DNA from: Rhodospirillaceae bacterium
GTDB lineage: Bacteria > Pseudomonadota > Gammaproteobacteria > Steroidobacterales > Rariloculaceae
Assembly (NCBI GenBank): GCA_002718345.1
Contig: PBDA01000030.1
Span: 1-64,000 of the forward strand
DNA: 64,000 bases
Direction: 5' to 3'
Made by a program: the position numbers and the translations under genes. Shown here piece after piece: positions 11,068 to 27,908 of this stretch. The notes below the pieces were generated by a model. That model was not told where the DNA came from and made no database searches. It saw nothing but the letters and a program-made list of their open reading frames with translations. Within the stretch, counting starts at the first letter, position 1, and every line of letters begins with the position of its first letter.

Positions 11068-12351
11068 TTAAATGGACACGTGAGGTTTGCCTGTTTTTAC
11101 TCGCAGATGTCCCTGCGCAGTTTCGTTATAGCTCTGACCCTTTGGAAGTAGAAAGGATGCAGATCGAACTTTATGAGTTTCAGGGTCAACGCCGGGAGGT
11201 TGTATTCCCTTTGTCTCTAATTCTTCTACGGCTTTTAATAATTTTCTTCTAGCTAACATAATTCCACGATCAGTAGGAGCTAACTTTTCGTTACTTCTGT
11301 CGCAAATTGATCCCATGCTTTCTTGCAGTGAAGAGTCTTGAATGGCAATGCCTTTGACGCCGCTATAGGTAGTGCCTAATCGTTGCGCTTCTCTATCCAT
11401 CAAATAGTTATTAGATTTATTAGCCTTTGGAATAAAGGTTCCTGGCACATACTCACAGTGAATGCCTTCGCCATTTTCCATTGCTTTTCGTTCATTAGTT
11501 GTAAGTTTTCTTGAAGCTTTGTAATCGTAGCTCCACGTCCAGCAGTTATGGTCATCTATCGGAACCCAAAAATGACCATGTATCGGATGATCTGCTCTAG
11601 GTGGGATCATAGTGAATGCGGGCATTACCCATTGTGTGATTCGCCAGTAGTATTGATCTTTCTCTGCATTTCTACGAGCACCAATTAACAAACCGCCAGT
11701 GCTCTCAGAAACATCGAACACCGGGCGCAAATCACCAAAATTATATTTGTTTCCTTTAGAGCCCTTGAATAAAGGGTCCGTGTTCAAAGCGCCACTATGC
11801 AAGAAAGACACATGACTAGAATCTATACCACCTTCCATTGCCTGAAGCCAGTTACATTCCTGAATCCGCTTAGATATAAAGCGTTTATCAGGAGTTACAT
11901 TACAAAATTCATATTCTGGTAATGGCGGTTTATCTTTAGGGTCTCCAAGATAGGCCCAAAGTATTCCTCCCTTTTCCGCTAGTGAATAGGCTTTAAGCTT
12001 GATTTGCTTGCAGAAATTAGGATCTTTTTCAGAAGGGACATCTATACAATTACCGAAGACATCATATTTCCATCCATGATAAGGACAACGTAGGCCGTTT
12101 TCTTCATTTCTACCAAACCATAATGATACGCACCTATGAGCACAGAACTCATCGATTAATCCCAGTCTGTTTTCAGAATCTCTAAATGCAATTAGACGTT
12201 CTGAGCAAATTTGTACGCGCACAGGAGGACAATCGGGGGAAGGCAATTCCTCAGTTAAAAGTACTGGTTGCCAGTAACAACGGAATAAATTCCCCATAGG
12301 GGTTTCAGGTCCAGTTTGTGTTAGAAGTTCATTCCTTTCTTTTGAGAGCAT
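11068..12351 (-). CDS. Rieske non-heme iron oxygenase, alpha-type (phthalate-4,5-dioxygenase-like family)
   Basis: A terminal oxygenase subunit, 427 residues. The Rieske [2Fe-2S] ligands are Cys70-x-His72 and Cys89-x-x-His92 (CPYHGW). The mononuclear iron site shows EGGIDSSHVSFLH with His180 and His185. The gene starts at an ATG preceded by AGGTGAG. The family hydroxylates aromatic or other carboxylates with O2, taking electrons from a reductase. No reductase gene is adjacent, so one must be elsewhere or shared. It is divergent from the PanB-like gene 52 bases away and convergent with the alcohol dehydrogenase. The phthalate-type resemblance is by overall look; the substrate is unknown. Confidence 0.9.
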   Translation of the reverse strand: MLSKERNELLTQTGPETPMGNLFRCYWQPVLLTEELPSPDCPPVRVQICSERLIAFRDSENRLGLIDEFCAHRCVSLWFGRNEENGLRCPYHGWKYDVFGNCIDVPSEKDPNFCKQIKLKAYSLAEKGGILWAYLGDPKDKPPLPEYEFCNVTPDKRFISKRIQECNWLQAMEGGIDSSHVSFLHSGALNTDPLFKGSKGNKYNFGDLRPVFDVSESTGGLLIGARRNAEKDQYYWRITQWVMPAFTMIPPRADHPIHGHFWVPIDDHNCWTWSYDYKASRKLTTNERKAMENGEGIHCEYVPGTFIPKANKSNNYLMDREAQRLGTTYSGVKGIAIQDSSLQESMGSICDRSNEKLAPTDRGIMLARRKLLKAVEELETKGIQPPGVDPETHKVRSASFLLPKGQSYNETAQGHLRVKTGKPHVSI

Positions 12352-12403: not shown

Positions 12404-13216
12404 GTGTCTAATCAAGTAACGATACCACAGCTAAATAAAATGAAGCATGAGGGCCGAAAGATTGTTGGTGTCGTTGCATGGGATGCACACATTGCTCAAA
12501 TAGCGGATCGTGCTGGGGTAGATATTTTATCTGTTGGGGATTCGATTGGCGTTAATCTTTGGGGGCATTCAAACCCATTTTCTGTGACATTGGACCAAAT
12601 GATTACAGTTGCATCTGCAGTACGATCAGGGACACAACGCGCTTTAGTAAGTTGCGATCTGCCGTTTGATCCATCTGAAATAGGCGTCAGTGCGACGGTT
12701 GAAGCAGGACTGAGGATGATTCAGGAGGTTGGGGTTGATTTGGTAAAGCTTGATGGGGCATCTGGATGCCCTGAGGCTGTATCAGCACTTACTGAGGCAG
12801 GGGTTTCTGTATGGGCCCAGTTCGGCGTGACACCATATACAGCCGAGCAATATGGCATAAAGTATAGCGATCTCTCCAACGCAGAAGTTCCTTCTGAAAT
12901 GACAAATAAATTAGTATCAGAAGCGAAAATTCTAGAAGCTGCTGGAGCAGACATGTTGGATTTTACAAACTCTGGTCCATATGTTGGACCAGCTGTAACT
13001 TCTGCTGTGACTATTCCAGTGATAGGTGGATTTGGTGGTGGGCCATGGCTAGATGGTCGTGTTCGCATGGCCCATGCTGCTATAGGTTATGGTGTAGCGA
13101 ACCTTGATCAGAACATTACAACCTATGCGAATGTAGCTAATATAACACTAGAGGCTATCAGTGCCTTTAGTAAAGATGTAAGAGAAGGCCGTCAGATAAA
13201 AGGCGGTATACGTTAA
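12404..13216 (+). CDS. Ketopantoate hydroxymethyltransferase (PanB)-like aldolase
   Basis: A TIM-barrel enzyme of the PanB/PEP-mutase superfamily, 270 residues with a GTG start. It keeps the first metal region (SVGDSIGVNLWGHS with the Asp), VSCDLPF with the second Asp, and LVKLDGA with the Lys, as in PanB. The PanB catalytic Glu segment (LECVP in the family) reads MLDFTNSGP here, so the general base is changed or moved. No panC is nearby and the gene is grouped with a hydrolase, EutA-like and TTT genes. A catabolic C-C lyase or aldol role is more likely than pantothenate synthesis (inference). Confidence 0.75.
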   Translation: MSNQVTIPQLNKMKHEGRKIVGVVAWDAHIAQIADRAGVDILSVGDSIGVNLWGHSNPFSVTLDQMITVASAVRSGTQRALVSCDLPFDPSEIGVSATVEAGLRMIQEVGVDLVKLDGASGCPEAVSALTEAGVSVWAQFGVTPYTAEQYGIKYSDLSNAEVPSEMTNKLVSEAKILEAAGADMLDFTNSGPYVGPAVTSAVTIPVIGGFGGGPWLDGRVRMAHAAIGYGVANLDQNITTYANVANITLEAISAFSKDVREGRQIKGGIR

Positions 13217-13236: not shown

Positions 13237-14097
13237 GTGCCAATTACCAGAATTGATGGAATAAGTACTAGGTACGAGATAATTGGTTCCGGACAACCAG
13301 TTCTCTTCTTTTCACCTGGTGGTTTTGATGCGACCTTGGATAAATGGTCTACGCTTGGTGTCTACGAGCGTATAAGAATGCTTGAGTATTTGCCGCAACA
13401 CTATCAATGCATACTTTTTGATAGACGCGAGACCGGTTTGTCTGGCGGAAGAGTTGAAAAACTTTCTTGGGATCATTATGTGAATCAAGGGAAAGGTCTT
13501 TTGGATTATCTGGGTTTTGAACGCACGCATTTGATAGGAGGTTGCATGGGTTGTTGTCCAGTGATGGCTTTTGCAGTCAAACATCCTGAGACGGTGTTGA
13601 GCATGACCCTCTTTTGGCCTGTTGGTGGTCCTCATTATCGCATAAGAGCAAGAGAACGTTTTGAGACCCACCTTGCATTTGTTGTAAAGGAGGGCTTAGA
13701 GGGTGTTGTGAATCTTGTTAATGAGACTAATGTTGGTTTTGGTAAAGACCCTCGTATTGGCCCATGGGCTTCAGTAATTCGCCAAAGTAAAAAATTTGCT
13801 GCAAGTTACAGTGATATAAGTTTAGAAGAATATAAGCTGATAATAGAAGGCATTCAGCATAGTCTTATTGATCGAGATACTGCGCCAGGGGCAGAACCAG
13901 AGGATCTTCTTAATTTAGATATTTCAACACTTATTATTCCAGGGAAAGATCTCGCTCATGCGACATCAGCAGCAAGATATCTCCACGAATGTCTCCCATT
14001 ATCTCAATACTGGGATATTGCTCCAGACTTATTGAGTGAAAAAAATGTGCCAACAAGAATTTTGAATTTTTTAAATGATGTGTCTGATAAAACCTAG
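13237..14097 (+). CDS. Alpha/beta hydrolase with cysteine at the nucleophile position
   Basis: An alpha/beta-fold hydrolase of 286 residues with a GTG start 20 bases after the PanB-like gene. The oxyanion region FFSPGG and the FDRRETGLSG segment resemble MhpC-type hydrolases. The nucleophile elbow is GGCMG (residues 101-105), so the nucleophile is Cys103 instead of Ser, as in dienelactone hydrolase. Asp238 in PGKDLAHAT is a plausible acid, but the usual C-terminal G-H catalytic histidine is not evident; His241 or His250 are the only candidates near it. It likely acts on an ester, lactone or C-C bond in the same pathway. Confidence 0.8.
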   Translation: MPITRIDGISTRYEIIGSGQPVLFFSPGGFDATLDKWSTLGVYERIRMLEYLPQHYQCILFDRRETGLSGGRVEKLSWDHYVNQGKGLLDYLGFERTHLIGGCMGCCPVMAFAVKHPETVLSMTLFWPVGGPHYRIRARERFETHLAFVVKEGLEGVVNLVNETNVGFGKDPRIGPWASVIRQSKKFAASYSDISLEEYKLIIEGIQHSLIDRDTAPGAEPEDLLNLDISTLIIPGKDLAHATSAARYLHECLPLSQYWDIAPDLLSEKNVPTRILNFLNDVSDKT

Positions 14098-14129: not shown

Positions 14130-15074
14130 TTATCCAGTAAGGTCAATTGTCTCAGAAACGAACAGAGAATTGATATCAACATGGTGCCTTAAAATTTTCT
14201 GAGTTTTTGCATGCTGTATAAGATTTTCAAGAATTGAATTGTTGAGAGTAACACCATACGGTAGTGGGTCTTGGTGAAGCTCCAATATTTGAGCATTTAA
14301 ATTATCTGTAGATGAAGGGCAAAATATTTGTTTTTTACTCAATTTATCTAAGTACAATTTTTTAGCCTCACTAAAAGCATTGAATATAGCAGTAGCTACG
14401 CCAGGGTGTTTTTTCAATACAGAATTACGAATTACGATTAGGTGGTTGATAGGGTAGTGTCCACGATCAGAAAAAGCAGCAAGCCCTCTTTCTAAAGCAT
14501 CAGGTATTAAGCTTTGAACCCGAGGATCGGTGGGCTGTATATTAATTGCTGCTGATATATCCCCAGTAATTAGTAATTCCTCTAGCGTTTGCGGACTATT
14601 GGAAGGGACAACATTTGTAGGTGGGTTGTACTCAGCAACATGTTCATCTCCAGAGAGCACCCAAGTAATCTTGTCAAGATCTACATCGTATTCTTCTTGT
14701 AAAATACTGCGAGCCCAGACGCCTGCTGTTACAGTATATCCGCGATTTACTCCAATTCGACAACCCTCTAATTGCTTAGGTTCCTTAATAGGATTATCTG
14801 TATTGTGGAAAATTGCCCCATGGTGGAAAGCACGTTTTAAAAATATCGGTATAGCGGTAAATTCAACACCATGCTCGCGCGCACATAGATAGGTTGTAAG
14901 AGCCATTTCGCAAATGTCGAATTCTAGTCTTCTAACCATTCGTCTAAATGCATCTACAAGAACTGGAATCTCAATAAAGTCTAATGCTAAGTCAGGTAAT
15001 TTAATTGTGCCGTTTTTTAGCGCTGCGTTGTTACCTTGGGTGCGTGTAACAATACTTAGAGGTTGTGAATTCAT
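14130..15074 (-). CDS. 4,5-dihydroxyphthalate decarboxylase-like protein (substrate-binding-protein fold)
   Basis: A 314-residue protein without signal peptide that resembles Pht5-type 4,5-dihydroxyphthalate decarboxylase, a family built on the NMT1 binding-protein fold. Matching segments are RRLEFDICEMALTTYL, FTAIPIFLKRAFHHGAI, GCRIGVNRGYTVTAGVW and the ILQEEYDVDLDKITWVL block. The family removes a carboxylate from hydroxylated aromatic diacids. Many homologues carry this annotation without proof, so the decarboxylase role is a family inference. It is followed 17 bases downstream of the EutA-like gene, in the same minus-strand unit as the 122-residue protein. Confidence 0.7.
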   Translation of the reverse strand: MNSQPLSIVTRTQGNNAALKNGTIKLPDLALDFIEIPVLVDAFRRMVRRLEFDICEMALTTYLCAREHGVEFTAIPIFLKRAFHHGAIFHNTDNPIKEPKQLEGCRIGVNRGYTVTAGVWARSILQEEYDVDLDKITWVLSGDEHVAEYNPPTNVVPSNSPQTLEELLITGDISAAINIQPTDPRVQSLIPDALERGLAAFSDRGHYPINHLIVIRNSVLKKHPGVATAIFNAFSEAKKLYLDKLSKKQIFCPSSTDNLNAQILELHQDPLPYGVTLNNSILENLIQHAKTQKILRHHVDINSLFVSETIDLTG

Positions 15075-15091: not shown

Positions 15092-16684
15092 TTAACTTGG
15101 TTGTTTGTGGTGAATATACTCTTTTCGTTGAGGTCCCTCTGAGATATCTCTAAAGACAAGAGACTTGATTGTAACTGGCACTGTTAATGATGGATGCCTG
15201 AGTTTGCCAATGTCTATGTAGTCAAAATTTCGTAATTCAAGGCCATCTAAAATTAGAATATCATTTATTAGGCCTAATTCCTCTCGCAATATTGCGCCTA
15301 GGTTCAATGCAATATCTGCATTTAGAATTACATAAATAGGTTTGCCTTGACTGATTCTTTGTCTAAGGGCTGTTTGAATGGCTTCGGCTAGTTTTTTAAC
15401 TCTGGAAAAATCAGGATTTCCAGTCCAGTAGATAGCTAGAACAATTTCTCTGTGATTATCTATATCAAAAATATTTAGTTTATGTTGAATGGCATCAACG
15501 AGTTCAGTAGAACTAAAGTTTTCTGTGAAGTTAAAGTCTGGTTGAATAACCTGAATGTTTCTTCGAGGTAATAATCTCTCAGGATTACTGATGTAGCTGG
15601 TATTTCCGCTCAGTTGGGCAGTGAATTCGGATCCACCTAGTGCAGTTGATCTAATGCCTTCGCTCTCCTCTATTAGTGTCCATGGTAGTTCTCCGGAATC
15701 GATACGTTCTCGTAGAGCCTTTCCTAGGTGAAAACCAAGATCCTGATAGTCTTTTTTTTCGTGGCCATAAAAAAACTCTGATACTCCGCCAGAAAAAATC
15801 ACGCCATCTATTTTCTCCATGTTAGTTATTGGATCAGTTAGGTAAAGGTTCAATAATTCTTTAGGTTTAGGTGAATTTGTAAGTACTGTATTTAGATCGC
15901 TTGCCATTGATTGAGCTACTGTCTTTATCTCATTACTACTAATTATTTTTCCTAACTCCCAGTTAACACCGGCTCGAACCGCATGGGTTTTTCCTGCTGG
16001 ATCTAAGCGTATTAGTTCTTGCTTTTTGTTAAATACGGCAAGTCTCCCTCCAACATGGAAAGCTGCAGTGGATAGTATTTTCCCCTTATCAATAACGCTC
16101 AGTTTTGTGGTTCCTCCACCTACATCAATATTTAACAGCTTATTATTAAAATCATGTGAAATTTTAGCAGCGCCAGATCCATAGGCTGCTAACATTGCTT
16201 CCATGTGATGGCCAGCAGCGGCACAAACTAGTGCCCCACATTTTTCAGATAAAATACGTGCAATACGTTCTGAATTTTTTCGTCTAAGAGCCTCTCCTGT
16301 AAGAATAATTACACCGGTGTCTATTTGATCAGGTTTTAATTGAGCGTCTGCATAAGCTTTATCAATTATCTCTCCAAGGGCCCTATCGTTAATGAGCGTA
16401 TCGTTGATGTAGGGCGTAAGACTAATTGGTGACTGAAAAAGTGTCTGGCGGGATACAACAAGATAACGTGTTGATAGTTTAACTGCCTGGCGTTTAAGTC
16501 TTACTTCAGAAAATAAAACTTGTGTCCCAGCTGATCCTATATCTATACAAACACTGAAGAGAGTTACATTTTCTCGATGCCAAAGAGGGTGCTCGTCAAC
16601 TTGACTTTGTAAATCAGAATCATCCTGATATCCATCAGGCGTATGGTCAGGATCTGGATTGTAGTAATTTGAATGTTTGCTCAT
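15092..16684 (-). CDS. EutA-like ATPase (ethanolamine ammonia-lyase reactivase family)
   Basis: A 530-residue protein of the actin/Hsp70 ATPase superfamily that resembles EutA throughout. Phosphate-1 is D48-IGSAGT, phosphate-2 is D187-VGGGTT and the adenosine motif is FSGG about residue 298. EutA-specific blocks are IILTGEALRRKN, AAGHHMEAMLAAYGSG, VGGRL and the C-terminal FDYIDIGKLRHP then VPVTIKSL. It has a 40-residue polar N-terminal extension compared with enterobacterial EutA. EutA exchanges damaged cobalamin out of ethanolamine ammonia-lyase using ATP. No EutB or EutC is in the window, so the client is unknown. It is transcribed with a DHPD-like gene. A second copy is at 22.7 kb. Confidence 0.85.
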   Translation of the reverse strand: MSKHSNYYNPDPDHTPDGYQDDSDLQSQVDEHPLWHRENVTLFSVCIDIGSAGTQVLFSEVRLKRQAVKLSTRYLVVSRQTLFQSPISLTPYINDTLINDRALGEIIDKAYADAQLKPDQIDTGVIILTGEALRRKNSERIARILSEKCGALVCAAAGHHMEAMLAAYGSGAAKISHDFNNKLLNIDVGGGTTKLSVIDKGKILSTAAFHVGGRLAVFNKKQELIRLDPAGKTHAVRAGVNWELGKIISSNEIKTVAQSMASDLNTVLTNSPKPKELLNLYLTDPITNMEKIDGVIFSGGVSEFFYGHEKKDYQDLGFHLGKALRERIDSGELPWTLIEESEGIRSTALGGSEFTAQLSGNTSYISNPERLLPRRNIQVIQPDFNFTENFSSTELVDAIQHKLNIFDIDNHREIVLAIYWTGNPDFSRVKKLAEAIQTALRQRISQGKPIYVILNADIALNLGAILREELGLINDILILDGLELRNFDYIDIGKLRHPSLTVPVTIKSLVFRDISEGPQRKEYIHHKQPS

Positions 16685-16748
16685 CTGATGACAAATATCG
16701 GCATTTAAGAAGTAGGTATTTATTTTGTGTTATGACGCAAGTTTGTGG

Positions 16749-17117
16749 TTAGTATTTTTTCTTAATATTGCTTGCGGTTGACTCTCCTTCAGCATAGCCA
16801 GTCAGCAATGCTTCTATTAGATTCCGCAACGGGTCATCCTGTATAGGTTGATGTGCTGCTATAAATCCGGCTATTCGAGCATATACTAGTGGTTCCATTG
16901 AAATCCTTTCATAGCCTGTTATTGCGTTGTTGGTCTCATCGCAAGTTGTAGTTGCGCTGAGCGTTTGTCGAAACAAATTATCCAGGTAGTTATATAAGTT
17001 ATCTGTTGTGTTGCTATTATCTGTTTTTGTAGACGAGAGAAATTTTTGCGTTCGTTCTACAAATCGTTGGTAGTAGTCTTCTGCTAATGTTTCATCGCTT
17101 TCTATATCACCACACAT
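16749..17117 (-). CDS. Hypothetical protein, 122 residues
   Basis: Not recognised. It is an acidic, soluble protein with a Ser/Thr/Asn-rich middle (about residues 28-43) and a helical C-terminal half (EPLVYARIAGFIAAHQ, then NLIEALLTGYAEG). No signal peptide or membrane segment is seen. It is the first gene of the minus-strand unit with the EutA-like and DHPD-like genes (64 bases upstream of EutA-like) and diverges from the TctC gene at 17269. By position it could be a small subunit or adaptor for that unit, but that is only context. Confidence 0.55.
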   Translation of the reverse strand: MCGDIESDETLAEDYYQRFVERTQKFLSSTKTDNSNTTDNLYNYLDNLFRQTLSATTTCDETNNAITGYERISMEPLVYARIAGFIAAHQPIQDDPLRNLIEALLTGYAEGESTASNIKKKY

Positions 17118-17181
17118 TGTCGTATTCCTGTTAATTCATTGTTTATAAAAATTTGCTAGAACCTTCTTGGGTAGTTTACCT

Positions 17182-17210
17182 TTGACCAATATCATATTGC
17201 TGTATATTCA
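17182..17210 (+). promoter_or_regulatory. Putative sigma-70 promoter for the TctC-TctAB operon
   Basis: TTGACC at 17182-17187 and TATTCA at 17205-17210 are separated by 17 bases, with an overlapping TATATT at 17203. This sits about 60 bases before the TctC start and in the divergent gap of the hypothetical gene. It is the best match in this gap; it is sequence-only and unverified. Confidence 0.35.
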
Positions 17211-17268
17211 GCGGATATTTACAGAAGGGCGATGATAATATCTCTCCAAAAAGGGAGGAAATTAGGAG

Positions 17269-18315
17269 ATGTGGCCAGCAAAAAGACACCTGCTTGCGTT
17301 TTGTTCTTGCTTATTGATGTCTCAACTAGTTGTTGTGCCCATAAAGGCTGATGCCGTATCAGATTTTTATAAAGGGAGGCAGGTAAGGCTTTTGATCGGC
17401 TATAGTGCAGGTGGAGGGTATGATACCTACGCTCGCCTTCTTGCCAGACATTTGGGTAAGCACATACCAGGAAATCCAACAATTGTTCCGCAAAATATGC
17501 CGGGTGCGGGTAGCCTTACTTTGGCTAATTTTATATATAACGTTGCACCTAAAGATGGAAGTGTTATTGGAACATTTGCTCGTGGTATGGCTATGGAGCC
17601 ACTTTTATCAGGTATGGGCACGAGATTTAATGCTAACGAGTTTTCATGGATTGGTAGCTTGAACAACGAGGTCAGCGTTTGCGCTTCCTGGTATGAGTCA
17701 AATGTTAAGACTATGGAGGACTTGAATAATTATGAATTGATTGTAGGTGGAACAGGCTCAGGTGCTGACACTGATACCTTTCCTATAGTTATGGGTAACC
17801 TTATCACTCCCAATATAAAACTTATATCAGGTTACCCCGGTGGTAATGATGTGCTTCTAGCAATGGAGCGGGGTGAAGTAGATGGTCGCTGCGGTTGGTC
17901 TTGGTCTACAGTTGTTTCCAGGAGTAGTGACTGGTTAGCGGAGGGTCGAATAAATATTCTTGTGCAGTTAGCATTAGAAAAGCATCCTGATCTTCCCCAT
18001 ATCCCCTTAATTACAGAGTTTGCTGAGAACGATGATGAACTAATGGCGTTGGAATTGATTTTTGCACGTCAAGTTATGGGGCGACCGTATTTGGCACCAC
18101 CAGGTATTCCTATAGATCGGCTTACTGCCTTGAGAAATGCTTTTGAGGCAACAACTAATGATCCAGAATTTATCGCAGATGCAACACGTATTCAGCTTGA
18201 ACTCAATCCAGTTTCTGGTGAAGAGATAGATATTCTTATTTCGCGTATTTATGATGCTTCTGAAAATGCAGTTAGTCTTGCCTCTAAAGCAATTGTTAAG
18301 TCTGATGGGATGTGA
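17269..18315 (+). CDS. TTT (TctC/Bug family) solute-binding protein
   Basis: A 348-residue periplasmic carboxylate receptor. A GGGAGG ribosome site lies 9-15 bases before the ATG. The signal peptide ends around IKADA. The mature part has LLIGYSAGGGYDTYARL and the T-I-V-P-Q-N-M-P-G-A-G segment. It is directly upstream of the TctA-TctB fusion, so the two form a complete TTT importer with a two-component permease in one chain. It is close in style to the receptor at 455-1483 (GG/DT residues, NMPGGG/GAG). Confidence 0.92.
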   Translation: MWPAKRHLLAFCSCLLMSQLVVVPIKADAVSDFYKGRQVRLLIGYSAGGGYDTYARLLARHLGKHIPGNPTIVPQNMPGAGSLTLANFIYNVAPKDGSVIGTFARGMAMEPLLSGMGTRFNANEFSWIGSLNNEVSVCASWYESNVKTMEDLNNYELIVGGTGSGADTDTFPIVMGNLITPNIKLISGYPGGNDVLLAMERGEVDGRCGWSWSTVVSRSSDWLAEGRINILVQLALEKHPDLPHIPLITEFAENDDELMALELIFARQVMGRPYLAPPGIPIDRLTALRNAFEATTNDPEFIADATRIQLELNPVSGEEIDILISRIYDASENAVSLASKAIVKSDGM

Positions 18316-18397
18316 ATTAGTGAAAATTGATGACACTCGAAAGTTAAGGAAAAATGAATTCTTTGGTGTGTCAGCGTGAAAACGGGAGATTAATAAT

Positions 18398-20425
18398 TTG
18401 GAGGCAGGCGCACTCGAATTAGCAGTAAATGCATTGAGTGTAATGCTTGAGCCATCAAGGCTTATTCTTTTGGGTGCCGGTGTTTTAGTAGGTTTGACAA
18501 TAGGGGTCATTCCAGGGCTCGGTGGTATTGTAGGTATTGCGTTATTAATCCCATTCACTTTTGAGATGGATGCTTATTCAGCGTTTGCCTTTCTAATAGG
18601 TATTGGTGCTGTTACGACCACTTCAGACACTGTGCCAGCTGTACTTTTTGGCGTGCCTGGCACTACAGGCTCTGCAGCTACAATACTTGATGGACATCCT
18701 TTAGCCAAAACAGGACATGCTGGCCGAGCTTTTGGTGCGGCATACAGCGCATCACTTCTTGGTGGGTTAGCAGGAGCATTTCTTTTGGCAGTGAGTATCC
18801 CCGCTTTGAGACCAGTGATTTTATATCTTGGCTCGCCGGAGCTTTTGGCAATATGTGTTTTTGGATTGTCTATGGTTGCTGTTTTGAGTGGAAAGGCAGC
18901 ACTTAGAGGAATGGTAGCAGCTGGTATAGGTTTAATGATTGCCATGGTTGGTTCTGATCCGCAGACGGGAACCATGCGATGGACGTTTGACACATTTTAT
19001 TTGTGGGATGGGTTGCCACTGGTGCCAGTAACACTTGGTTTATTTGCTTTGCCTGAATTAGCAGATCTTGCAATTGGAAAAAAAAGTATTGGCCGTGTTC
19101 ATTCCGTCAATACCCGTTCTGGGCAGTTTCAGGGGATTAGGAATACTCTTCAGTATTGGTGGTTAGTTTTAAGGTGTAGTTGGATTGGGGCTGCATTAGG
19201 TGCTGTCCCTGGTATGGGATCTGCTGTTATAGATTGGTTAGCATATGGTCATGCTCTCAAGACAGAAAAAAATACCGAAAAATTTGGAAATGGTGATATT
19301 CGAGGAGTTATTGCATCAGAGAGTTCAAATAATGCAAAAGAAGGTGGTGCATTAGTTCCAACGCTTGCTTTTGGTGTTCCTGGCAGTGCCTCAATGGCTA
19401 TTTTATTAGGCGCATTTACAATGCATGGATTAGTTCCTGGTCCGGGAATGCTGACTGACAATTTGGATGTTACGTATTCAATTGTTTGGAGCCTTGCGCT
19501 TGCGAATGTTTTTGGCGCTGGTTTGTGTCTTTTATTGAGTAACCAGTTGGCTAAGGTTGCATCAATTCGTATTAGCGTATTACTTCCACTTGTCCTAGGG
19601 ATAATTTTTTTTGGAGCATTACAGGGTTCTCGACAGTGGGGAGACCTTAATGTTTTATTTGCCTTCGGTCTTCTTGGTTGGATTATGAAGCATTTAGGTT
19701 GGCCTAGGCCACCATTGATACTTGGTTTTGTTCTTGGAGATATTGTAGAGCGATATTTATTTATATCAGTTAATCGTTATGAGTGGACATGGCTGAGTAG
19801 ACCATTAGTAATTTTATTTTTCACATTAGCTATTGTAGGTCTTATTGGGCCTCTATTACGAAATCTTAAGGCTTCGTTTAAGTCAGATCAGACTAAGAGC
19901 TTCTTGCCCAAGTTTTCTATGTCTGCTTTTTTTACATTGATTGTTATTTTATTTCTCACGATTTATGTGCTTCTTGCTTCACAATGGAATTTTGAAGCGA
20001 GAATAGTTCCTTTGTTAGTAGGTTGCACAGCTTTGATGTGTGCCATTTTAAGTTTAATTAATCAGGTGTTTTTTCAACAGAGCGGAAACAAAACATCAAA
20101 TATTAATGAAAACACATCTCAATCGAATATTGATGATGTTTCAGTTGGATTCACGAAACATATGATGGTCGAGGGGTGTATATTTTTTGGGAATTGTGGG
20201 TTATTTATTTTATTAGCAAGAGTTACAGGAATGCTGTTAGCTGTTTTCTTGTTTGTTCTGCTATATATGTGTTTTTGGGGAAAAGAAGGCTTGAGTCGTG
20301 CTGCACTGTTTAGTTTAGGGGTAACTGGATTTAGTTGGCTGCTGTTTGACAGGGTATTATCTATTCCTTGGCCTCAGAATTTTCTCGGCAGTATTGTTCC
20401 AGTGCTCGGGCCATTTTTAAAATAG
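18398..20425 (+). CDS. TTT permease, TctA-TctB fusion
   Basis: A 675-residue membrane protein. Residues about 1-505 are a full TctA, with VIPGLGGIVG, FGVPGTTGSAAT and the duplicated VPGMGSAV and FGVPGSASMA motifs. Residues about 515-675 form a TctB-like four-helix unit separated by a polar linker (about 555-588). The TTG start at 18398 has GGGAGA 8 bases upstream. Standalone TctA is near 500 residues, so the extra 170 match the size and topology of TctB. No separate tctB lies next to it, which fits a genuine fusion rather than readthrough. It pairs with the TctC at 17269-18315. Confidence 0.9.
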   Translation: MEAGALELAVNALSVMLEPSRLILLGAGVLVGLTIGVIPGLGGIVGIALLIPFTFEMDAYSAFAFLIGIGAVTTTSDTVPAVLFGVPGTTGSAATILDGHPLAKTGHAGRAFGAAYSASLLGGLAGAFLLAVSIPALRPVILYLGSPELLAICVFGLSMVAVLSGKAALRGMVAAGIGLMIAMVGSDPQTGTMRWTFDTFYLWDGLPLVPVTLGLFALPELADLAIGKKSIGRVHSVNTRSGQFQGIRNTLQYWWLVLRCSWIGAALGAVPGMGSAVIDWLAYGHALKTEKNTEKFGNGDIRGVIASESSNNAKEGGALVPTLAFGVPGSASMAILLGAFTMHGLVPGPGMLTDNLDVTYSIVWSLALANVFGAGLCLLLSNQLAKVASIRISVLLPLVLGIIFFGALQGSRQWGDLNVLFAFGLLGWIMKHLGWPRPPLILGFVLGDIVERYLFISVNRYEWTWLSRPLVILFFTLAIVGLIGPLLRNLKASFKSDQTKSFLPKFSMSAFFTLIVILFLTIYVLLASQWNFEARIVPLLVGCTALMCAILSLINQVFFQQSGNKTSNINENTSQSNIDDVSVGFTKHMMVEGCIFFGNCGLFILLARVTGMLLAVFLFVLLYMCFWGKEGLSRAALFSLGVTGFSWLLFDRVLSIPWPQNFLGSIVPVLGPFLK

Positions 20426-20506
20426 ATGATCAAATGAATGTGCAGACATGAGTTGATAATAATTTTTAGTGTCGATTGTTTTTGTTTTTCTTATCGGTGA
20501 AATTAT

Positions 20507-21595
20507 ATGAAAGAAATTGATGAACCTAAGTTTCTTTTTGATCCATATCTTGATTGGGCAGAGGGGGAGGGTATACCTATTGTTGAAGATTTTGGTGTTG
20601 ATTTGAACAAAGTTGAAACGCGTTCATGGGATCGATTTGGTGCGGATGGTGCTTTGGTTCATTTGAAAGGTCGCGGGGATTTTCTGTGCATATTTCTTAT
20701 TGATATTGTGCCTGGTGGTAAATCAGTTCCACAGCAACATGTTTTTGAGGAGGTGATTTATGTGCTTGAAGGACAGGGTAGTACAACAGTAAAAACACAC
20801 GATGGTAGAACTCATAGTTTTGAATGGAGCAAAGGAAGTCTTTTTGCATTACCGCTAAATGCTACGTATCAGCACTTCAATGGTAGTGGAAAAAGAAAAG
20901 CAAGACTTTCATCTACTAATAATCTTCCTATGGTGATCAATTTGTTTCACAACGATGATTTTGTTTTTGACAATCCATTTGTTTTTGCTGAACGTCAGGG
21001 CAAGGAAAGTTTTTTTTCTGGCGAAGGTGATTTTATTCCTAAAAAACCTGGTAGGCACATGTGGGAAACTAACTTTGTGCCAGATGTTAGGGAATTTGAA
21101 CTTGTCAAATGGGAAAAACGCGGAGCGGGTGGTTCAAACATGATGTTTGTTCTAGCAGATGGGACAATGCACGCGCACTCATCAGAAATGCCGGTAGGCA
21201 CTTATAAAAAAGCTCATCGTCATGGTGCTGATTTTCATGTTTCCTGTATTACAGGGACTGGGTATTCGCTACTCTGGTATGAACAAGATGAAGAGTTTGT
21301 AAGGGTTGATTGGGATCATGGTGTTGTATTTGCACCACCCGATGGAATGTACCATCAGCATTTTAATACAAGTCCATTACCAGCTAGGTATTTAGCTATA
21401 GCTCTCGGTGGTTTGCGGTATCCCATGTTGGCTGAGAAACGAGCTGTTTTTGCAGGCATGGATGTAAACGTTCGAGATGGAGGAGCACAAATTGAATATG
21501 AGGACCAGGATCCACGTATTCATGAAATATATCTTGAGGCTCTTAAGAAAAATGGGGTTTCCTCCGGGATGGATGGTTTTTTCAGTAAAGCCTAA
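20507..21595 (+). CDS. Bicupin protein (tandem copy 1)
   Basis: A 362-residue bicupin, ATG start. N-domain motif 1 is QQHVFEEVIYVLEGQGSTT, motif 2 TYQHFNGSG. C-domain motif 1 is KKAHRHGADFHVSCI, giving H-x-H plus a third His, and motif 2 is PPDGMYHQHFN. The N-domain lacks the H-x-H pair, so the C-domain is the likely metal site. It is the neighbour of a near-identical-length tandem copy at 21624, with long identical stretches by eye, so the pair arose by duplication. It sits between the TTT fusion and the second EutA-like gene. A catalytic or substrate-binding role in the pathway is likely but unproven. Confidence 0.85.
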   Translation: MKEIDEPKFLFDPYLDWAEGEGIPIVEDFGVDLNKVETRSWDRFGADGALVHLKGRGDFLCIFLIDIVPGGKSVPQQHVFEEVIYVLEGQGSTTVKTHDGRTHSFEWSKGSLFALPLNATYQHFNGSGKRKARLSSTNNLPMVINLFHNDDFVFDNPFVFAERQGKESFFSGEGDFIPKKPGRHMWETNFVPDVREFELVKWEKRGAGGSNMMFVLADGTMHAHSSEMPVGTYKKAHRHGADFHVSCITGTGYSLLWYEQDEEFVRVDWDHGVVFAPPDGMYHQHFNTSPLPARYLAIALGGLRYPMLAEKRAVFAGMDVNVRDGGAQIEYEDQDPRIHEIYLEALKKNGVSSGMDGFFSKA

Positions 21596-21623
21596 TGAGA
21601 TTACAGTTTTATAACTAGTTACT

Positions 21624-22718
21624 ATGAGACAAAAAAAAGAAGAAGCAAAATTTCTTTCAGATCCTTATTTAGAATGGGTCAATAAAGAAGGTATACCTAT
21701 TACTATAGGGCTTGGAATAAATTTGTTGGATATCGATACTAGGCCATGGGAAAGAGTAGGAGTAAATGCTGGTCTCGCTCATCTTGATGGCCGTGGTGAT
21801 TTTGTGTCAATTTTCGTCTTGGATATTCCGCCGGGAGGGAAAACTGAGTCACAGCAGCATCTTTTTGAAGAAGTAGTGTACGTTCTTGAGGGTCACGGTA
21901 GTACTACAGTAAAAACCATTGATGGTAAAACCCACAGTTTTGAATGGGGGCCGAAGAGTCTTTTCGCTTTGCCGCTGAATGCTGAGTATCGACATTTCAA
22001 TGGAAGTGGTCGTGCAAAAGTACGTCTTTCATCAACCAACAACCTCCCATTAGTGATGAATCTTTATCACAACGAAGACTTTATCTTTAAAAATAAGTTT
22101 GAGTTGCCAGAACGTGCTGGAAAAGCAGGCTATTTTTCAGGTGAAGGGGAATTTATTCCTAAGAGGCCTGGTAGACATATGTGGGAGACTAATTTTGTGC
22201 CCAATGTCAGTGAGTTTGAGCTTAAAACTTGGGATAAGCGTGGTGCAGGTAGTTCAAATATGAAATTTATTCTTGCTGATGGGACTATGCATGCCCATTC
22301 ATCAGAGATGCCTGTAGGTACATACAAGAAAGCCCATAGGCATGGTCCTGATTTCCATGTTTTTAATGTGACTGGTAAAGGATATTCACTTCTATGGTAC
22401 GAGGGTGACAATGATTTTCAACGTGTGGATTGGACTCACGGGGTAGTATTTGCACCACCAGATGGGATGTATCATCAGCACTACAACACCAGCAAGAATC
22501 CTGCTCGTTATCTTGCGATTGCCTTGGGAAGTTTAAGGTATCCATTTACATCTGCAAAAAGAAACTTATTTGAAGGAGTGGATGTAAGCATTCGCGATGG
22601 GGGAGCGCAAATAGAGTATGAGGATCAGGATTCACGAATTCACCAGATTTATCTGAGTGAACTCGCTGATGCTGGTGTGGCTTCTCAAATGAGCGATTAT
22701 ATTGATGAAAGTGTCTGA
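21624..22718 (+). CDS. Bicupin protein (tandem copy 2)
   Basis: A 364-residue paralogue of the gene 28 bases upstream. The whole C-terminal half is largely the same, with HAHSSEMPVGTYKKAHRHG and VFAPPDGMYHQH. The N-domain motif 1 is QQHLFEEVVYVLEGHGS, motif 2 EYRHFNGSG. Its end overlaps the start of the EutA-like gene (stop at 22716-22718, EutA start at 22705), indicating tight co-translation. Retaining two full copies suggests distinct substrates or a heteromer (inference). Confidence 0.85.
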   Translation: MRQKKEEAKFLSDPYLEWVNKEGIPITIGLGINLLDIDTRPWERVGVNAGLAHLDGRGDFVSIFVLDIPPGGKTESQQHLFEEVVYVLEGHGSTTVKTIDGKTHSFEWGPKSLFALPLNAEYRHFNGSGRAKVRLSSTNNLPLVMNLYHNEDFIFKNKFELPERAGKAGYFSGEGEFIPKRPGRHMWETNFVPNVSEFELKTWDKRGAGSSNMKFILADGTMHAHSSEMPVGTYKKAHRHGPDFHVFNVTGKGYSLLWYEGDNDFQRVDWTHGVVFAPPDGMYHQHYNTSKNPARYLAIALGSLRYPFTSAKRNLFEGVDVSIRDGGAQIEYEDQDSRIHQIYLSELADAGVASQMSDYIDESV

Positions 22719-24291
22719 ATTGTTGGGGTTAAGTGGAACATCGCCCGAAGTCTTTCAGCCTAGTTATATTCTGCATGATTTGGGCTTTGATCATCTGCAC
22801 CCAACTGAAGAAGAGCAAAAGAAATTAAGCGATACGATTTGGTCTGCAGATAATATTATTTTAACTACTGTTGGTGTTGACATAGGTTCTTCGACTTCCC
22901 ATTTAATGTTTTCGCGTGTGCATTTACAACGTTTGTCAGAAGCTCTTTCAAGCAGGTTTGTCATTGTTAATCGGGAAATGTTGTGGAGATCGCCTATTAT
23001 TTTAACGCCGTATGTTTCAGGGGTAACGATAGACGCAAATCGTTTAGCATCATTTATTTTTGGCTCGTACAAAAAAGCTAACTTAAAAGCTGAAGATATC
23101 GATAGCGGAGCAGTTATTCTCACTGGCGAAGCACTTAAAAGGAAAAATGCTAGAGCAATAGCTGAGTTGTTTGCTGATCAGTCAGGTAAGTTTGTTTGTG
23201 CATCTGCAGGACATCATCTTGAAGCAGTCATGGCTGCTCACGGTTCTGGTGTAGTTAAGTATTCTAGGCAGTCACATAAATCAATTCTTAACGTAGATAT
23301 AGGTGGAGGTACTACGAAACTAGCGCTTGCTCATGAAGGACAAGTTATTGGGCAATCTGCAGTAGCAGTTGGGGGTAGATTGGTAGCTTTTGGGACCAAG
23401 GACGAGCTGATTCGAGTAGAAGAGCCGGCATTGGAGATAGCAGATAGTGTAGGTGTAAAACTTGAGCTTGGTAAAACCTTAAGTCCTGCAGATAAGCAAA
23501 AAATAATTCAAGCAATGGTTGATGTTCTCGTCTCAGCCTGTAATTTTGAGTCATGGCAAGGATTAGGAAAAAAGCTCGCCCTCACGCCTTTTTTGGAGAA
23601 GAAAAAAACTGTAGATGCGATAAGTTTTTCAGGTGGAGTAGCTGAATACATTTTTAAACGAGAACAGTCTGATCATGGTGATATTGGTGTTGAATTAGCA
23701 AATGGGATTGTCACAGCTTTAAAAAACAAAGAGATTTCTTATTCAGTGTATGATCCGGGCAATGGTATTCGAGCCACTGTAATAGGAGCATCTCAATTTT
23801 CAGTTCAGGTCAGTGGTAATACAATTTTTATTTCTTCTGATAACTTGCTACCTTTAAGGAATATACCAGTAGTTAAGTTAAGTTCTAGTCTAAACAAAAC
23901 AATTAATGCTGAAGAAGTTTCAAAAGATATTATTGAGTCCCTTAAATCATTTGATATTACCGAGGGAACAGACCCTGTTGCTTTAGCTTTTCGATGGCAG
24001 GGAGATCCTTTGCATGAGCGCCTTTATCAACTAGCTTGTGGCATTTGTAGTGGTTTTCCTAAGACTATTAAGTGTAATACACCTTTAATATTGGTAATGG
24101 ATGGTGATGTTGGGAGAACTGTTGGTGAAATTCTGAAAAATGAACTTGATGTCATTTGTGACATTATTTCGATTGATGGAATTGAGCTTAAGTCATTTGA
24201 TTATGTGGATATTGGCGAGATCATTAGGCCAACTAATGTTGTGCCATTGGTAATAAAGTCTTTGCTATTTTCAGCTGGGGACACAGATTAA
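22705..24291 (+). CDS. EutA-like ATPase (second copy)
   Basis: About 528 residues, homologous end to end to the EutA-like protein at 15.1-16.7 kb. Phosphate-1 is DIGSSTS near residue 59, phosphate-2 is DIGGGTT near 198, the adenosine motif is FSGGVAEY, and the ending is FDYVDIGEIIRP then VPLVIKSLLF. I chose the ATG at 22705; the TTG at 22702 and GTG at 22711 are alternatives. It overlaps the bicupin gene and is followed after 2 bases by the MFS gene. No EutB/EutC partner is visible. It is the reactivase-like ATPase of the plus-strand unit of bicupins, MFS, aldolase, UbiD and CoA transferase. Confidence 0.85.
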   Translation: MKVSELLGLSGTSPEVFQPSYILHDLGFDHLHPTEEEQKKLSDTIWSADNIILTTVGVDIGSSTSHLMFSRVHLQRLSEALSSRFVIVNREMLWRSPIILTPYVSGVTIDANRLASFIFGSYKKANLKAEDIDSGAVILTGEALKRKNARAIAELFADQSGKFVCASAGHHLEAVMAAHGSGVVKYSRQSHKSILNVDIGGGTTKLALAHEGQVIGQSAVAVGGRLVAFGTKDELIRVEEPALEIADSVGVKLELGKTLSPADKQKIIQAMVDVLVSACNFESWQGLGKKLALTPFLEKKKTVDAISFSGGVAEYIFKREQSDHGDIGVELANGIVTALKNKEISYSVYDPGNGIRATVIGASQFSVQVSGNTIFISSDNLLPLRNIPVVKLSSSLNKTINAEEVSKDIIESLKSFDITEGTDPVALAFRWQGDPLHERLYQLACGICSGFPKTIKCNTPLILVMDGDVGRTVGEILKNELDVICDIISIDGIELKSFDYVDIGEIIRPTNVVPLVIKSLLFSAGDTD

Positions 24292-24293
24292 TT

Positions 24294-25511
24294 TTGTTTT
24301 TTAAAACTGATATCAAATCAGATGCAAAGATTTTGAGTCTGGTATCGGCAGGACATTTTGTTAGCCATTTTATGACGCTAACGCTTCCTCCACTTTTTCC
24401 TTTTCTTCAAGCTGATTTTTCAATGAGTTATACCGAGCTTGGCTTCATAATGACTCTGTTTGCATTATCAACTGGTATTTTTCAGATACCAATTGGATTC
24501 CTTGTGGATCGCATTGGTGCTTTTTGTGTTTTGCTCATTGGGCTTTCAGTTCTGTGTTTGTCTATTGGAGCTATTGGGTTCTCAAATTCTCAATGGACCT
24601 TGGGGGCTTTAGTTATTCTTGCTGGTATAGCTAATAGTGTTTTTCATCCTGCAGATTATGCGGTGCTTACTTCCGTAATCAAGCCAGTGCGATTAGGAAA
24701 GGCCTTTGGTGTACATACCTTTGCAGGTCATTTAGGGAATGCTATAGCGCCGATAACAATTATTTATCTTGCTCTAGCTTGGAGTTGGCGTATTGCACTT
24801 GTTTTTGTTTCGGCTGTGGGTCTGGTCATCATGGTGTGCATGTTTTTTGGTATACGTAATAATGATATTGACTCTAATCTAACAAAAGAAAACTTAAATG
24901 AATCTGGAGGGCTCCAGGAAAGAGAGGAGAAGAATTCAATTCGTATATTTTTTTCTATACCTCTTTTAAAGCTTTTTGTTTTTTTTGTATTAACTGCCGC
25001 TGCTTCCAATGGGATGCAAACTTTTTCTGTTAGTGCGCTAGTTGCGCTTTTTGATACCCCAATAGTAATTGCAAGTGCTTCGCTAACAGCTTTTTTATTT
25101 GCCACATCAGTAGGTATTCTTCTCGGTGGGGTTCTTGCTGATTATACAGGCAGGCATGATCTTATTGCTGCTGTAGCCTTTGGTTTGACCGCTATTATTA
25201 TTGGGTTCATTGGTGCAGTACCATTTTCTTCGCTAATTCTGATTTTGTTACTTACAATTGCAGGTTTACTTCAGGGTGTAATTCGACCAGCCAGAGATAT
25301 GTTAGTACACGCTGCCGCTCCTGCTGGAGAAACAGGAAAGGTTTTTGGTTTTGTCACAACGGGGATAAACGTTGGGGCAGCTCTCATGCCACTAATATTA
25401 GGTTGGTTGGTAGATCGTGGAGCTGTAAGGTGGGTTTTTTGGCTTATCGCTCTATCAATGGTTTTGGCATTGTTGACTGTTCTTACAACTAAAAATTCTG
25501 TGGACAATTAG
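24294..25511 (+). CDS. MFS transporter
   Basis: A 405-residue major facilitator protein, about 12 membrane helices. The conserved loop between helices 2 and 3 reads GFLVDRIGA, a variant of the GxLaDrxGrk motif, and a second copy after helix 8 reads GGVLADYTGRHD. The N-terminal HFVSHFMTLTLPPLFPFLQ resembles the fosmidomycin-resistance-like group. A TTG start lies 2 bases after the EutA-like stop codon, so translation is coupled. It probably imports or exports a compound of the local pathway; an export role for an intermediate is equally possible. Confidence 0.85.
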   Translation: MFFKTDIKSDAKILSLVSAGHFVSHFMTLTLPPLFPFLQADFSMSYTELGFIMTLFALSTGIFQIPIGFLVDRIGAFCVLLIGLSVLCLSIGAIGFSNSQWTLGALVILAGIANSVFHPADYAVLTSVIKPVRLGKAFGVHTFAGHLGNAIAPITIIYLALAWSWRIALVFVSAVGLVIMVCMFFGIRNNDIDSNLTKENLNESGGLQEREEKNSIRIFFSIPLLKLFVFFVLTAAASNGMQTFSVSALVALFDTPIVIASASLTAFLFATSVGILLGGVLADYTGRHDLIAAVAFGLTAIIIGFIGAVPFSSLILILLLTIAGLLQGVIRPARDMLVHAAAPAGETGKVFGFVTTGINVGAALMPLILGWLVDRGAVRWVFWLIALSMVLALLTVLTTKNSVDN

Positions 25512-25550
25512 AGTTTTAGTAGGTAGGGGTATTAGTTTGATTGCATTCTT

Positions 25551-26288
25551 ATGGATAACGCACACACTAGATTAAGTCTGGCTGCATGTATTCGACTTCT
25601 TCATGCCGAAGGAATACTTACATATAACGGACACATTAGTGTGCGAGCCTCTGAAGACAATCATTTTTTTATACATTCTTTACTTGATCCTCGCTCTGAT
25701 GTTTTGCCAGAAAATATTGTTCTTCTAGATTTAGATGGTAGAGTAGTTGAGGCTACAGAAGGTCGAAAGCCCCCGAGTGAATTTCATATTCATTCAGAAA
25801 TTTATCGTCATCGTCCTGATATACATGCTATTGCTCATACGCATTCTGATGCAGCTATAGCATTTACGCTAGTCAGTGATAATCCATTAAGTGTGATGCG
25901 AGCTGACGCTATTCATTGGTCTGACGGAGTGCCTGTACATCCTGACCCTACTAGAATTAATACTTCGAAAAAGGGGAAGGAATTGTGTGAAACCCTTGGA
26001 GCTAAGAGCGCGGTTTTATTGCGATCTCATGGTGCAGTTATTGTTGGGTCTGGGCTCCTGAACATTTTTATGTTGGCTATTCATTTTGAAGAGAATGCAC
26101 AAGCGCAATTCCTTGCATCAAAACTTGGTGAGCTTAAGCCTTTGAGCTCAATTGAAATAGAGGCCTTGAAGAACAGTTCTTCGCCTGAGTTTTACGTCCA
26201 TTATGCAAATAAAATATGGAGTTATTATGTAAGTCGAGGCCAGAAAAAAGGTGTCATACCTAAGACGTGGTCAAATAAACTGCTATGA
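25551..26288 (+). CDS. Class II aldolase/adducin family protein
   Basis: A 245-residue protein of the FucA/RhaD/adducin-head family. Zinc ligands are in HTHSDAA (H-x-H) and a later LLRSHGAVIVG with His. The GHISVR-type (NGHISVRA) substrate-binding segment sits near residue 26 and PPSEFHIH near residue 82 provides the catalytic acidic residue. The family cleaves 2-hydroxy or 2-keto acid aldols; some members decarboxylate hydroxylated acids. It is in line with MFS upstream and UbiD downstream, so it is probably a lyase of the same route. Confidence 0.88.
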   Translation: MDNAHTRLSLAACIRLLHAEGILTYNGHISVRASEDNHFFIHSLLDPRSDVLPENIVLLDLDGRVVEATEGRKPPSEFHIHSEIYRHRPDIHAIAHTHSDAAIAFTLVSDNPLSVMRADAIHWSDGVPVHPDPTRINTSKKGKELCETLGAKSAVLLRSHGAVIVGSGLLNIFMLAIHFEENAQAQFLASKLGELKPLSSIEIEALKNSSSPEFYVHYANKIWSYYVSRGQKKGVIPKTWSNKLL

Positions 26289-26327
26289 TTAATGCCTGCG
26301 ATGAGATACATCTGAGATAGTGAAAAC

Positions 26328-27875
26328 ATGAAAAAAGATATTACAAATATTCGTTCAACGTTGGATTGGTTAAAAGAGCAGGGCGATGTTATTGAAACCG
26401 ATAAGGAAGTGGATCCTGATCTTGAACTTACAGGGTTGCAGAAGCATCTTGATGGTGGCCCAGTTATATTATTCAACAACGTAAAAGATAAGCCACATGC
26501 AAGGGCAATAACGAATCTTTTTTCAGATATAGAAGTTATAGATAAAATTTTTGGTTATGAAGATCCAGTTCAACGGACTCGAAAAATTGCAGATTGCATT
26601 GAGCAGCCACTACCGCCAACAGAAGTATCTCAAGATGAGGCCCCTTGTCAGGAAACAGTTATTACGGATGATCTTGATGTTAATAAATGGATAACCGCTA
26701 TCCGACATACAAAGCTTGAATCAGAAATGACAGTTGGATCGGCAATTTCGTGTGTTGTGGGAGATTATTTTGATGGAGGTAGCCATATTGGTTATAACCG
26801 AATGAATTTTCGCTGGGGAAATGTTGGGACGTTTCAAATATCGCCTGGTTCACACATGTGGCAAGTAATGACCAAGCATTATAAAGATGATCAGCCAATC
26901 CCCTTGACCATGTGTTTTGGAGTTCCGCCCGCGTGTACGTTAGTAGCGGGTGGTGGTTTTGATTATGCCATGTTGCCAAAAGGTTGTGATGAAATTGGTA
27001 TTGCAGGGGCTGCTCAAGGTACCCCGGTAAATATAGTTAAGGCTAGAACTGTTGAAAATGCTTGGGCAATTGCAGAATCAGAGTATGTGCTTGAGGGGTA
27101 TTTGCATCCGCGTGATAAGCGCTATGAAACCAAAGAGGCAGAAGATGCCGATGTTCAGGGTAAGTATTTTTTTCACCCGGAATGGGCTGGGTATATGGGC
27201 AAGGCATATAAAGCACCTACATTTCATGTTACCGCGATTACAATGCGTAACCCTGAGACTCGGCCAATTATTTTTCCATTGGGTGTGCATACATCAGATT
27301 GTATAAATATTGTTACTACTGTTCGGGAGTCGGCAATTTTAGGATTGTGCGAGCGTCTGCAGCCCGGCATTGTTCAAGATGTTCATATTCCCTACTGTAT
27401 GACAGACTGGGGTGGTTGCATAATTCAAGTTAAAAAGCGTAATAAAATTGAGGAAGGGTGGCAGCGAAACTTCTTGTCTGCAATTTTGTCGTGTTCCCAG
27501 GGAATGAGATTGGCAATTGCTGTTAGTGAAGATGTAGATATTTATTCCATGGATGACATTATGTGGTGTTTAACCACTAGGGTAAATCCGCGTACTGATA
27601 TTCTGAACCCAATACCTGGTGGTAGAGGGCAGACTTTTATGCCTTCAGAAAGAATGACCGCGGGGGATAAACAGTGGACTGCCTCAAATACAGAGTTTGA
27701 GGGAGGTATGGGAATTGATGCAACTGTTCCATATGGATATGAACAGGACTTTCATCGTCCGGTATATCCTATTGATCATGTGAAACCAGAGGATTTTTTC
27801 ACCGACGAGCAGATTAAAAATGCTAAATCACGGATGGCTGGTTGGGTATTATCTCTGGCGCGTACAGGAAGATAA
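26328..27875 (+). CDS. UbiD family decarboxylase
   Basis: A 515-residue member of the UbiD family, which uses prenylated FMN to (de)carboxylate aromatic or unsaturated acids. It has YNRMNFRWG-type and GSHMWQVM segments, IGIAGAAQGTPVNIVKA, and the VTAITMR strand. Where well-studied members have EGPFGExxGY, this protein reads YFFHPEWAGYMG, keeping the second acid (Glu285) but not the first. No UbiX (prFMN synthase) gene is in the window. It lies 39 bases after the aldolase and 33 before the CoA transferase, so these form one run. The substrate is unknown. Confidence 0.88.
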   Translation: MKKDITNIRSTLDWLKEQGDVIETDKEVDPDLELTGLQKHLDGGPVILFNNVKDKPHARAITNLFSDIEVIDKIFGYEDPVQRTRKIADCIEQPLPPTEVSQDEAPCQETVITDDLDVNKWITAIRHTKLESEMTVGSAISCVVGDYFDGGSHIGYNRMNFRWGNVGTFQISPGSHMWQVMTKHYKDDQPIPLTMCFGVPPACTLVAGGGFDYAMLPKGCDEIGIAGAAQGTPVNIVKARTVENAWAIAESEYVLEGYLHPRDKRYETKEAEDADVQGKYFFHPEWAGYMGKAYKAPTFHVTAITMRNPETRPIIFPLGVHTSDCINIVTTVRESAILGLCERLQPGIVQDVHIPYCMTDWGGCIIQVKKRNKIEEGWQRNFLSAILSCSQGMRLAIAVSEDVDIYSMDDIMWCLTTRVNPRTDILNPIPGGRGQTFMPSERMTAGDKQWTASNTEFEGGMGIDATVPYGYEQDFHRPVYPIDHVKPEDFFTDEQIKNAKSRMAGWVLSLARTGR

Positions 27876-27908
27876 CGAGTCCTAAGAGTGTGATGGAGAG
27901 GTGACCCG

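Follow-up and report, generated by a model that had tools for sequence, protein, structure and literature searches.

A branch of EutA-like ATPases genomically linked to bicupins, with a possible role in metal loading or exchange

What could a EutA-type reactivase serve in a genome that appears to lack ethanolamine ammonia-lyase? The question is raised by a 64,000-nucleotide stretch of a contig from a Rhodospirillaceae bacterium (hereinafter, the window), which encodes two EutA-like ATPases, copy 1 and copy 2 (Table 1). Phylogeny, gene neighborhoods and sequence features lead us to favor, with somewhat better than even confidence, the joint reading that EutA proteins without EutB form a separate branch of the family that serves a bicupin metalloenzyme in place of ethanolamine ammonia-lyase, and that this branch mediates ATP-driven loading or exchange of the metal of that enzyme. 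The genomic link between the EutA-like proteins and the bicupins is strong.

The assignment of both proteins to the EutA family, made in a preliminary description of this DNA, holds over the full length of the sequences: copy 1 matches positions 2-474 and copy 2 positions 3-474 of the 475 positions of Pfam PF06277 (E 1.6e-107 and 9.5e-125, respectively), and the EutA ATPase motifs noted there are indeed present and are common to classical EutA. However, the best scores against the NCBI EutA equivalog (308 bits for copy 1 and 364 for copy 2) fall below its cut-off of 598 bits, and PDB sequence searches with the EutA-like proteins returned MreB as the sole match. The two copies make up the complete EutA protein set of the host genome, a 2.29 Mb metagenome-assembled genome (MAG), as judged by a whole-genome search; EutB is absent from this entire, 86% complete MAG, and EutC was not searched for separately.

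In a tree of 118 sequences, 13 EutB-linked EutA proteins are split from 105 EutA-like proteins with a Shimodaira-Hasegawa-like approximate likelihood ratio test (SH-aLRT) support of 100; the tree contains some long branches, and the finer branching inside the groups is less certain. Both window copies fall outside the clade of EutB-linked EutA, and the combination that the preliminary description had named as speaking against a distinct branch, namely eutBC elsewhere in the genome and a position of both copies within the classical clade, was not found. EutB is undetected in 50 of the 56 genomes that carry the EutA-like type (8 from a sample of the order and 48 from 80 loci retrieved by an alignment-based search). 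Together with the split in the tree, this lends genomic support to the earlier proposal of a EutA branch with a different client. Moreover, in an even sample of the phylum (399 genomes including the host), five genomes besides the host encode a strong EutA match, all with EutB within ~160 bp. Both types coexist in Paenibacillus thalictri (G682), where a EutA scoring 543 bits directly adjoins EutB, and a EutA-like protein with a score of 413 bits adjoins a bicupin. Weak PF06277 matches across the order sample cover a short central stretch only and were set aside as probable FtsA or other ASKHA proteins. Two further observations concern the tree and the classical systems: a EutA-like gene on a contig labelled Flavobacteriales TMED123 (L054) is very near the Rhodospirillaceae ones, probably due to MAG contamination, and haloarchaeal plasmids (L128, L129, L176) carry a compact EutB-EutC-EutA operon, with no annotated microcompartment genes in the stretches read.

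The connection to bicupins is evident at the level of both gene adjacency and whole genomes, the genome-level tests of co-occurrence being independent of adjacency. Among the related loci, 72 of 106 EutA-like copies have a bicupin on the same strand at a distance of at most 500 bp; 48 of these 72 gaps do not exceed 50 bp, and in 20 cases the genes touch or overlap, as in the window, where the likely start of copy 2 (ATG at 22705) overlaps the stop of the preceding bicupin (21624-22718). Of the 34 copies without a nearby bicupin, 11 sit close to contig ends. In the order sample, bicupins are found in all 8 genomes with EutA-like genes and in 10 of 246 genomes overall (hypergeometric P=1.5e-13); the 2 genomes with a bicupin match but without a EutA-like gene are MAGs with completeness of 80-83%, and one of the matches is merely a fragment. 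The six other genomes of the same genus encode neither protein, and neither was detected in the 398 genomes of the phylum sample besides the host. When 29 carriers, chosen largely because an adjacent bicupin was missing, were searched again genome-wide, a bicupin was present in 27, compared with none of the 5 genomes with classical EutA. Furthermore, among 72,556 plasmids, the four that encode bicupins more than 50% identical are the same four that encode the closest EutA-like proteins.

The two families are also matched copy by copy. Evolutionary distances among 65 adjacent EutA-like/bicupin pairs are correlated (r=0.776, a value reached in 0 of 2000 permutations). Shared ancestry inflates such correlations, and therefore loci with two pairs were used as a test: in all 10 cases from five such loci, the nearest outside EutA-like protein predicts the adjacent bicupin and not the one belonging to the other copy. 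Other neighbors follow the EutA-like proteins less closely, with r=0.30 for TctC, 0.50 for TctA and 0.45 for the Rieske proteins, against 0.88, 0.96 and 0.84 for the bicupin on the respective subsets, although these control families include paralogues, which lowers their correlations. Each of three EutA subtypes has a corresponding bicupin subtype, and in 8 genomes of the order sample the two occur together in 14 of 14 combinations of genome and subtype. The same relationship identifies the phylogenetic match of copy 1 as a third bicupin (8658-9827) that was overlooked in the preliminary description: this gene lies five kilobases from copy 1 on the opposite strand, its counterpart in a related locus (L045) is located directly beside the copy 1 orthologue, and a type 1 bicupin is found in 7 of 7 genomes with a copy-1-type gene.

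With respect to the nature of the presumed client, the confident AlphaFold model (Table 1), built from window and genome-contig proteins only, predicts a bicupin with two cupin domains and a 3-His metal site; the invariant histidines belong to the C-terminal cupin, and the N-terminal cupin retains just the Glu of the usual site. The top sequence profile match is gentisate 1,2-dioxygenase (3bu7, 1e-6), and a scan against NCBIfam gave only matches below the cut-offs. The clusters hold Rieske oxygenases, a 4,5-dihydroxyphthalate decarboxylase-like (DHPD-like) protein, UbiD, hydrolases and organic-acid transporters, and this gene content indicates aromatic-acid catabolism; the bicupin is thus probably an enzyme of such catabolism, perhaps a ring-cleaving dioxygenase. 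Bicupins are strongly multiplied in some genomes, with 29, 22, 21, 20, 17 and 14 copies in those represented by L085, L052, L047, L065, L067 and L084 (G667, G648, G644, G655, G657 and G666, respectively), including 14 in a single 1.7 Mb SAR202 MAG. Rieske oxygenases are known to be multiplied in SAR202 group VII (PMC6946804; the terms ethanolamine and gentisate are absent from its text).

The EutA-like proteins differ from classical EutA in several features. They possess an N-terminal extension (median 41.5 residues), which in 89 of 102 proteins, from several phyla, includes three or more His, typically as MHDxDFDHEH, whereas classical EutA begins 7-21 residues ahead of the first ATPase motif and has a His cluster in 0 of 12 cases. 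In 12 EutA-like proteins, the C-terminal tail includes at least 7, and up to 27, His residues. All members of the branch carry DIGS and GGGTxK where all classical EutA carry DIGT and GGGTxN; the ATP-site residues D60, G62, D199, GGGT 201-204 and SGG 310-312 are kept in both groups. For copy 2, AlphaFold gives a model of moderate confidence (pLDDT 76, under 50 for residues 1-48), and Foldseek searches with this model retrieve ASKHA proteins (HgdC-type activator, PilM, Ppx/GppA, EutJ and kinases); judging by this predicted fold and the phosphate-binding motifs, the EutA-like proteins belong to the ASKHA ATPase superfamily. They would thereby combine a predicted NTPase with a His-rich segment, as seen in metallochaperones. 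As a separate observation, locus L125 (9920-13396) encodes a fusion in which a linker containing 27 His connects a EutA-like protein to the permease of an ABC transporter, and an ABC ATPase gene is next; we do not take this fusion as proof of metal import, the permease family resembling transporters of 2-aminoethylphosphonate and other compounds.

EutA frees ethanolamine ammonia-lyase of its damaged cofactor in an ATP-requiring manner, according to the account in PMC5821096 (and Mori et al., 2004, cited there). The simplest application of this principle to a metal enzyme, considered along with the His-rich tails, suggests that the EutA-like proteins may handle metal and underlies the proposal of metal loading or exchange. 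Under this scheme, the His-rich tail would bind metal, an ATP-driven conformational cycle would open the bicupin, and metal would be inserted or damaged metal exchanged, much as EutA releases damaged cobalamin. Given that several genomes encode 2-4 EutA-like proteins against 14-29 bicupins, one such chaperone might be able to serve several bicupins. We rate the chances as roughly even that this ASKHA family, mis-annotated as EutA, consists of dedicated metallochaperones or metal-exchange reactivases for a large family of bicupins of aromatic catabolism.

Several observations weigh against this interpretation. A seven-member subclade (L048-L051, L054, L057 and L059) mostly adjoins UbiD instead of a bicupin; most of its genomes carry bicupins elsewhere, and G693 shows none. 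Another subclade (L039, L041, L091, L110, L115 and L124) lacks the His motif though its members are located beside bicupins. The DHPD-like gene also follows EutA somewhat (r=0.64, compared with 0.86 for the bicupin where both are present). The bicupin fold search gave MncA and oxalate decarboxylase as the best matches, with a TM (template modelling) score of ~0.5 and no clear functional match, and the assignment as a dioxygenase is therefore weak. Finally, a EutA-bicupin fusion was not found among the loci; in L093, a bicupin probably appears as a long open reading frame because its 5' end is spuriously extended.

The main rival explanation, which we hold to be unlikely although it survives best, is that the EutA-like protein reactivates or activates the bicupin without handling metal, by remodelling enzyme inactivated by substrate or oxidation or by aiding folding or assembly, the His segments being incidental or regulatory. 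Every line of evidence for the bicupin as client also fits this alternative, and the subclade that keeps the bicupin without the His motif is in its favor; it is harder to reconcile with the breadth of the His-rich extension across several phyla, its absence from the classical sister clade and the second His-rich tail that 12 members add. Less probable still is a role in metabolism itself, the EutA-like protein being an ASKHA enzyme such as a kinase that uses what the bicupin consumes or produces. Such an enzyme would show an identical co-occurrence pattern, the best structural matches are diverse and include kinases and Ppx/GppA phosphatases, and the Lys that replaces Asn after GGGT could change catalysis; nevertheless, the likeness to the EutA reactivase extends over the full length, C-terminal region included, the small number of EutA-like proteins relative to the bicupins, which are divergent and number up to 29, suits a chaperone better than a pathway enzyme, and a metabolic kinase leaves the His-rich tails unexplained.

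The preliminary description had offered two options for the client, a local enzyme or a cobalamin enzyme elsewhere, of which the first stands, with the bicupins favored, and the second is weakened. Among other local enzymes, the DHPD-like or UbiD-type decarboxylase is a very improbable client: the DHPD-like cluster is found in 31 loci and adjoins copy 1 and its orthologues, and UbiD is adjacent in one EutA-like subclade, but the DHPD-like gene correlates less closely than the bicupin (see above) and is missing from many bicupin loci, and UbiD-type genes are adjacent in a minority of loci only. A cobalamin client, such as class II ribonucleotide reductase, with the bicupin linkage due to shared catabolic operons, is the least probable: this reductase is present in the host (575 bits), which therefore probably uses B12, overturning our reading of the missing PF02310 as a sign of no B12 use, and B12-binding proteins occur in most carrier genomes, but no PF02310 protein (B12-binding domain) and no BtuR-type adenosyltransferase were found in the host, the reductase is widespread, scoring above the cut-off in 7 of 14 control genomes, whereas EutA-like proteins are rare, and the specific pairing with bicupin subtypes would be unexplained.

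The gene content around both copies is as previously described, and is listed in Table 1 together with the His-rich segments. The tripartite tricarboxylate transporter genes are kept in L036, and a TctA-type fragment also precedes the type 2 bicupins in L033. The CoA transferase open reading frame (27909-30305, 798 aa) apparently codes for a single chain made up of two family III CoA-transferase units. Two more small cupin genes (6544-7134 and 7160-7714) lie beside a second tripartite transporter set (3998-5491), and for the second of these cupin genes (7160-7714) a relative with 84% identity is located in L044, close to the orthologue of copy 1. Outside the window, a putative metal transport gene of the YjbE family is found just downstream of a Phyllobacterium EutA-bicupin pair (L126, 17595-18236), with a LysR regulator, and has counterparts in L077 and L078.

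Table 1. Genes and motifs of the window discussed in the text
Feature	Coordinates	Strand	Remarks
EutA-like ATPase copy 1	15092..16684	-	530 aa; PF06277 360.8 bits; neighborhood kept in L042-L045
EutA-like ATPase copy 2	22702..24291	+	529 aa; PF06277 417.6 bits; adjacent bicupin; orthologous pair in L033/L046, L036
Type 1 bicupin, predicted copy 1 client	8658..9827	+	likely start ATG 8712; 68% identical to L045 bicupin adjoining copy-1-type gene; chosen by paralogue test
Type 2 bicupin, predicted copy 2 client	20507..21595	+	Cupin_2; AlphaFold model pLDDT 90.7; invariant H237, H239, H283, H285
Bicupin type 2	21624..22718	+	directly upstream of EutA-like copy 2, overlapping
DHPD-like	14130..15074	-	downstream of copy 1; match to solved structure PDB 9jp7, 6.8e-32; cluster in 31 loci
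Rieske-type oxygenase	11068..12351	-	kept in copy 1 neighborhood
Ketopantoate hydroxymethyltransferase-like (PanB-like)	12404..13216	+	PF02548, 199 bits; kept in copy 1 neighborhood
Alpha/beta hydrolase	13237..14097	+	PF00561; kept in copy 1 neighborhood
Tripartite tricarboxylate transporter genes	17269..20425	+	TctC 17269-18315, TctA-type permease 18398-20425; ahead of type 2 bicupins
Major facilitator superfamily (MFS) transporter, class II aldolase, UbiD-type decarboxylase, fused CoA transferase	24294..30305	+	downstream of copy 2
HDLGFDHLH motif, N-terminal, copy 2	22774..22800	+	typical of branch, absent from classical EutA
HSNYYNPDPDH segment, N-terminal, copy 1	16643..16675	-	orthologues: HYHPDPDHTPDGHH

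Several known systems offer parallels. Compared with EutA itself, the EutA-like proteins share full-length homology, the positions of the ATPase motifs and a predicted chaperone-type role, but are distinguished by the missing EutB partner, the separate clade, the His-rich extension, GGGTxK in place of GGGTxN, the bicupin partner and scores below the equivalog cut-offs. HypB, UreE/UreG and CooJ/CooC are ATP- or GTP-dependent metallochaperones with His-rich segments. They resemble the EutA-like proteins in that His-rich tails occur within or beside a nucleotide-driven helper for one metalloenzyme, whereas they are G3E or other P-loop proteins or non-NTPase metal binders, in contrast to the predicted actin/Hsp70-like ASKHA fold of the branch. 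If the bicupin does cleave rings, a further parallel is provided by XylT-type ferredoxins, dedicated helpers that are likewise encoded next to a ring-cleaving enzyme and reactivate extradiol dioxygenases by reducing iron; here, an ATPase takes the place of iron reduction. As for the bicupin, it shares with gentisate 1,2-dioxygenase (3bu7) and other bicupins the two cupin domains, the HxH motif with a downstream His and the weak profile match, which involves the C-terminal cupin, but its metal site is invariant in that cupin only, it scores below the NCBIfam cut-offs, and it has no close structure.

We found no link of EutA-like proteins with cupins in the open papers, subscription literature not being covered, and the window proteins most likely represent a functional variant within the EutA family in a pairing that is new to the open literature. 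In many environmental bacteria, genes labelled 'ethanolamine ammonia-lyase reactivating factor' are probably unrelated to ethanolamine, and the adjacent bicupin provides a sharp, testable client. To our knowledge, few dedicated chaperones have been described for the cupin superfamily. The EutA-like proteins may thus point to a new route of loading or renewing metal in the enzymes of this very large superfamily; if the proposal is true, they would represent a new type of metal-insertion machine, and the bicupins a second class of EutA-family clients. Furthermore, the strong multiplication of bicupins in presumed degraders of refractory organic matter, SAR202 among them, means that the pair may be of consequence for the turnover of carbon in the ocean and in soil.

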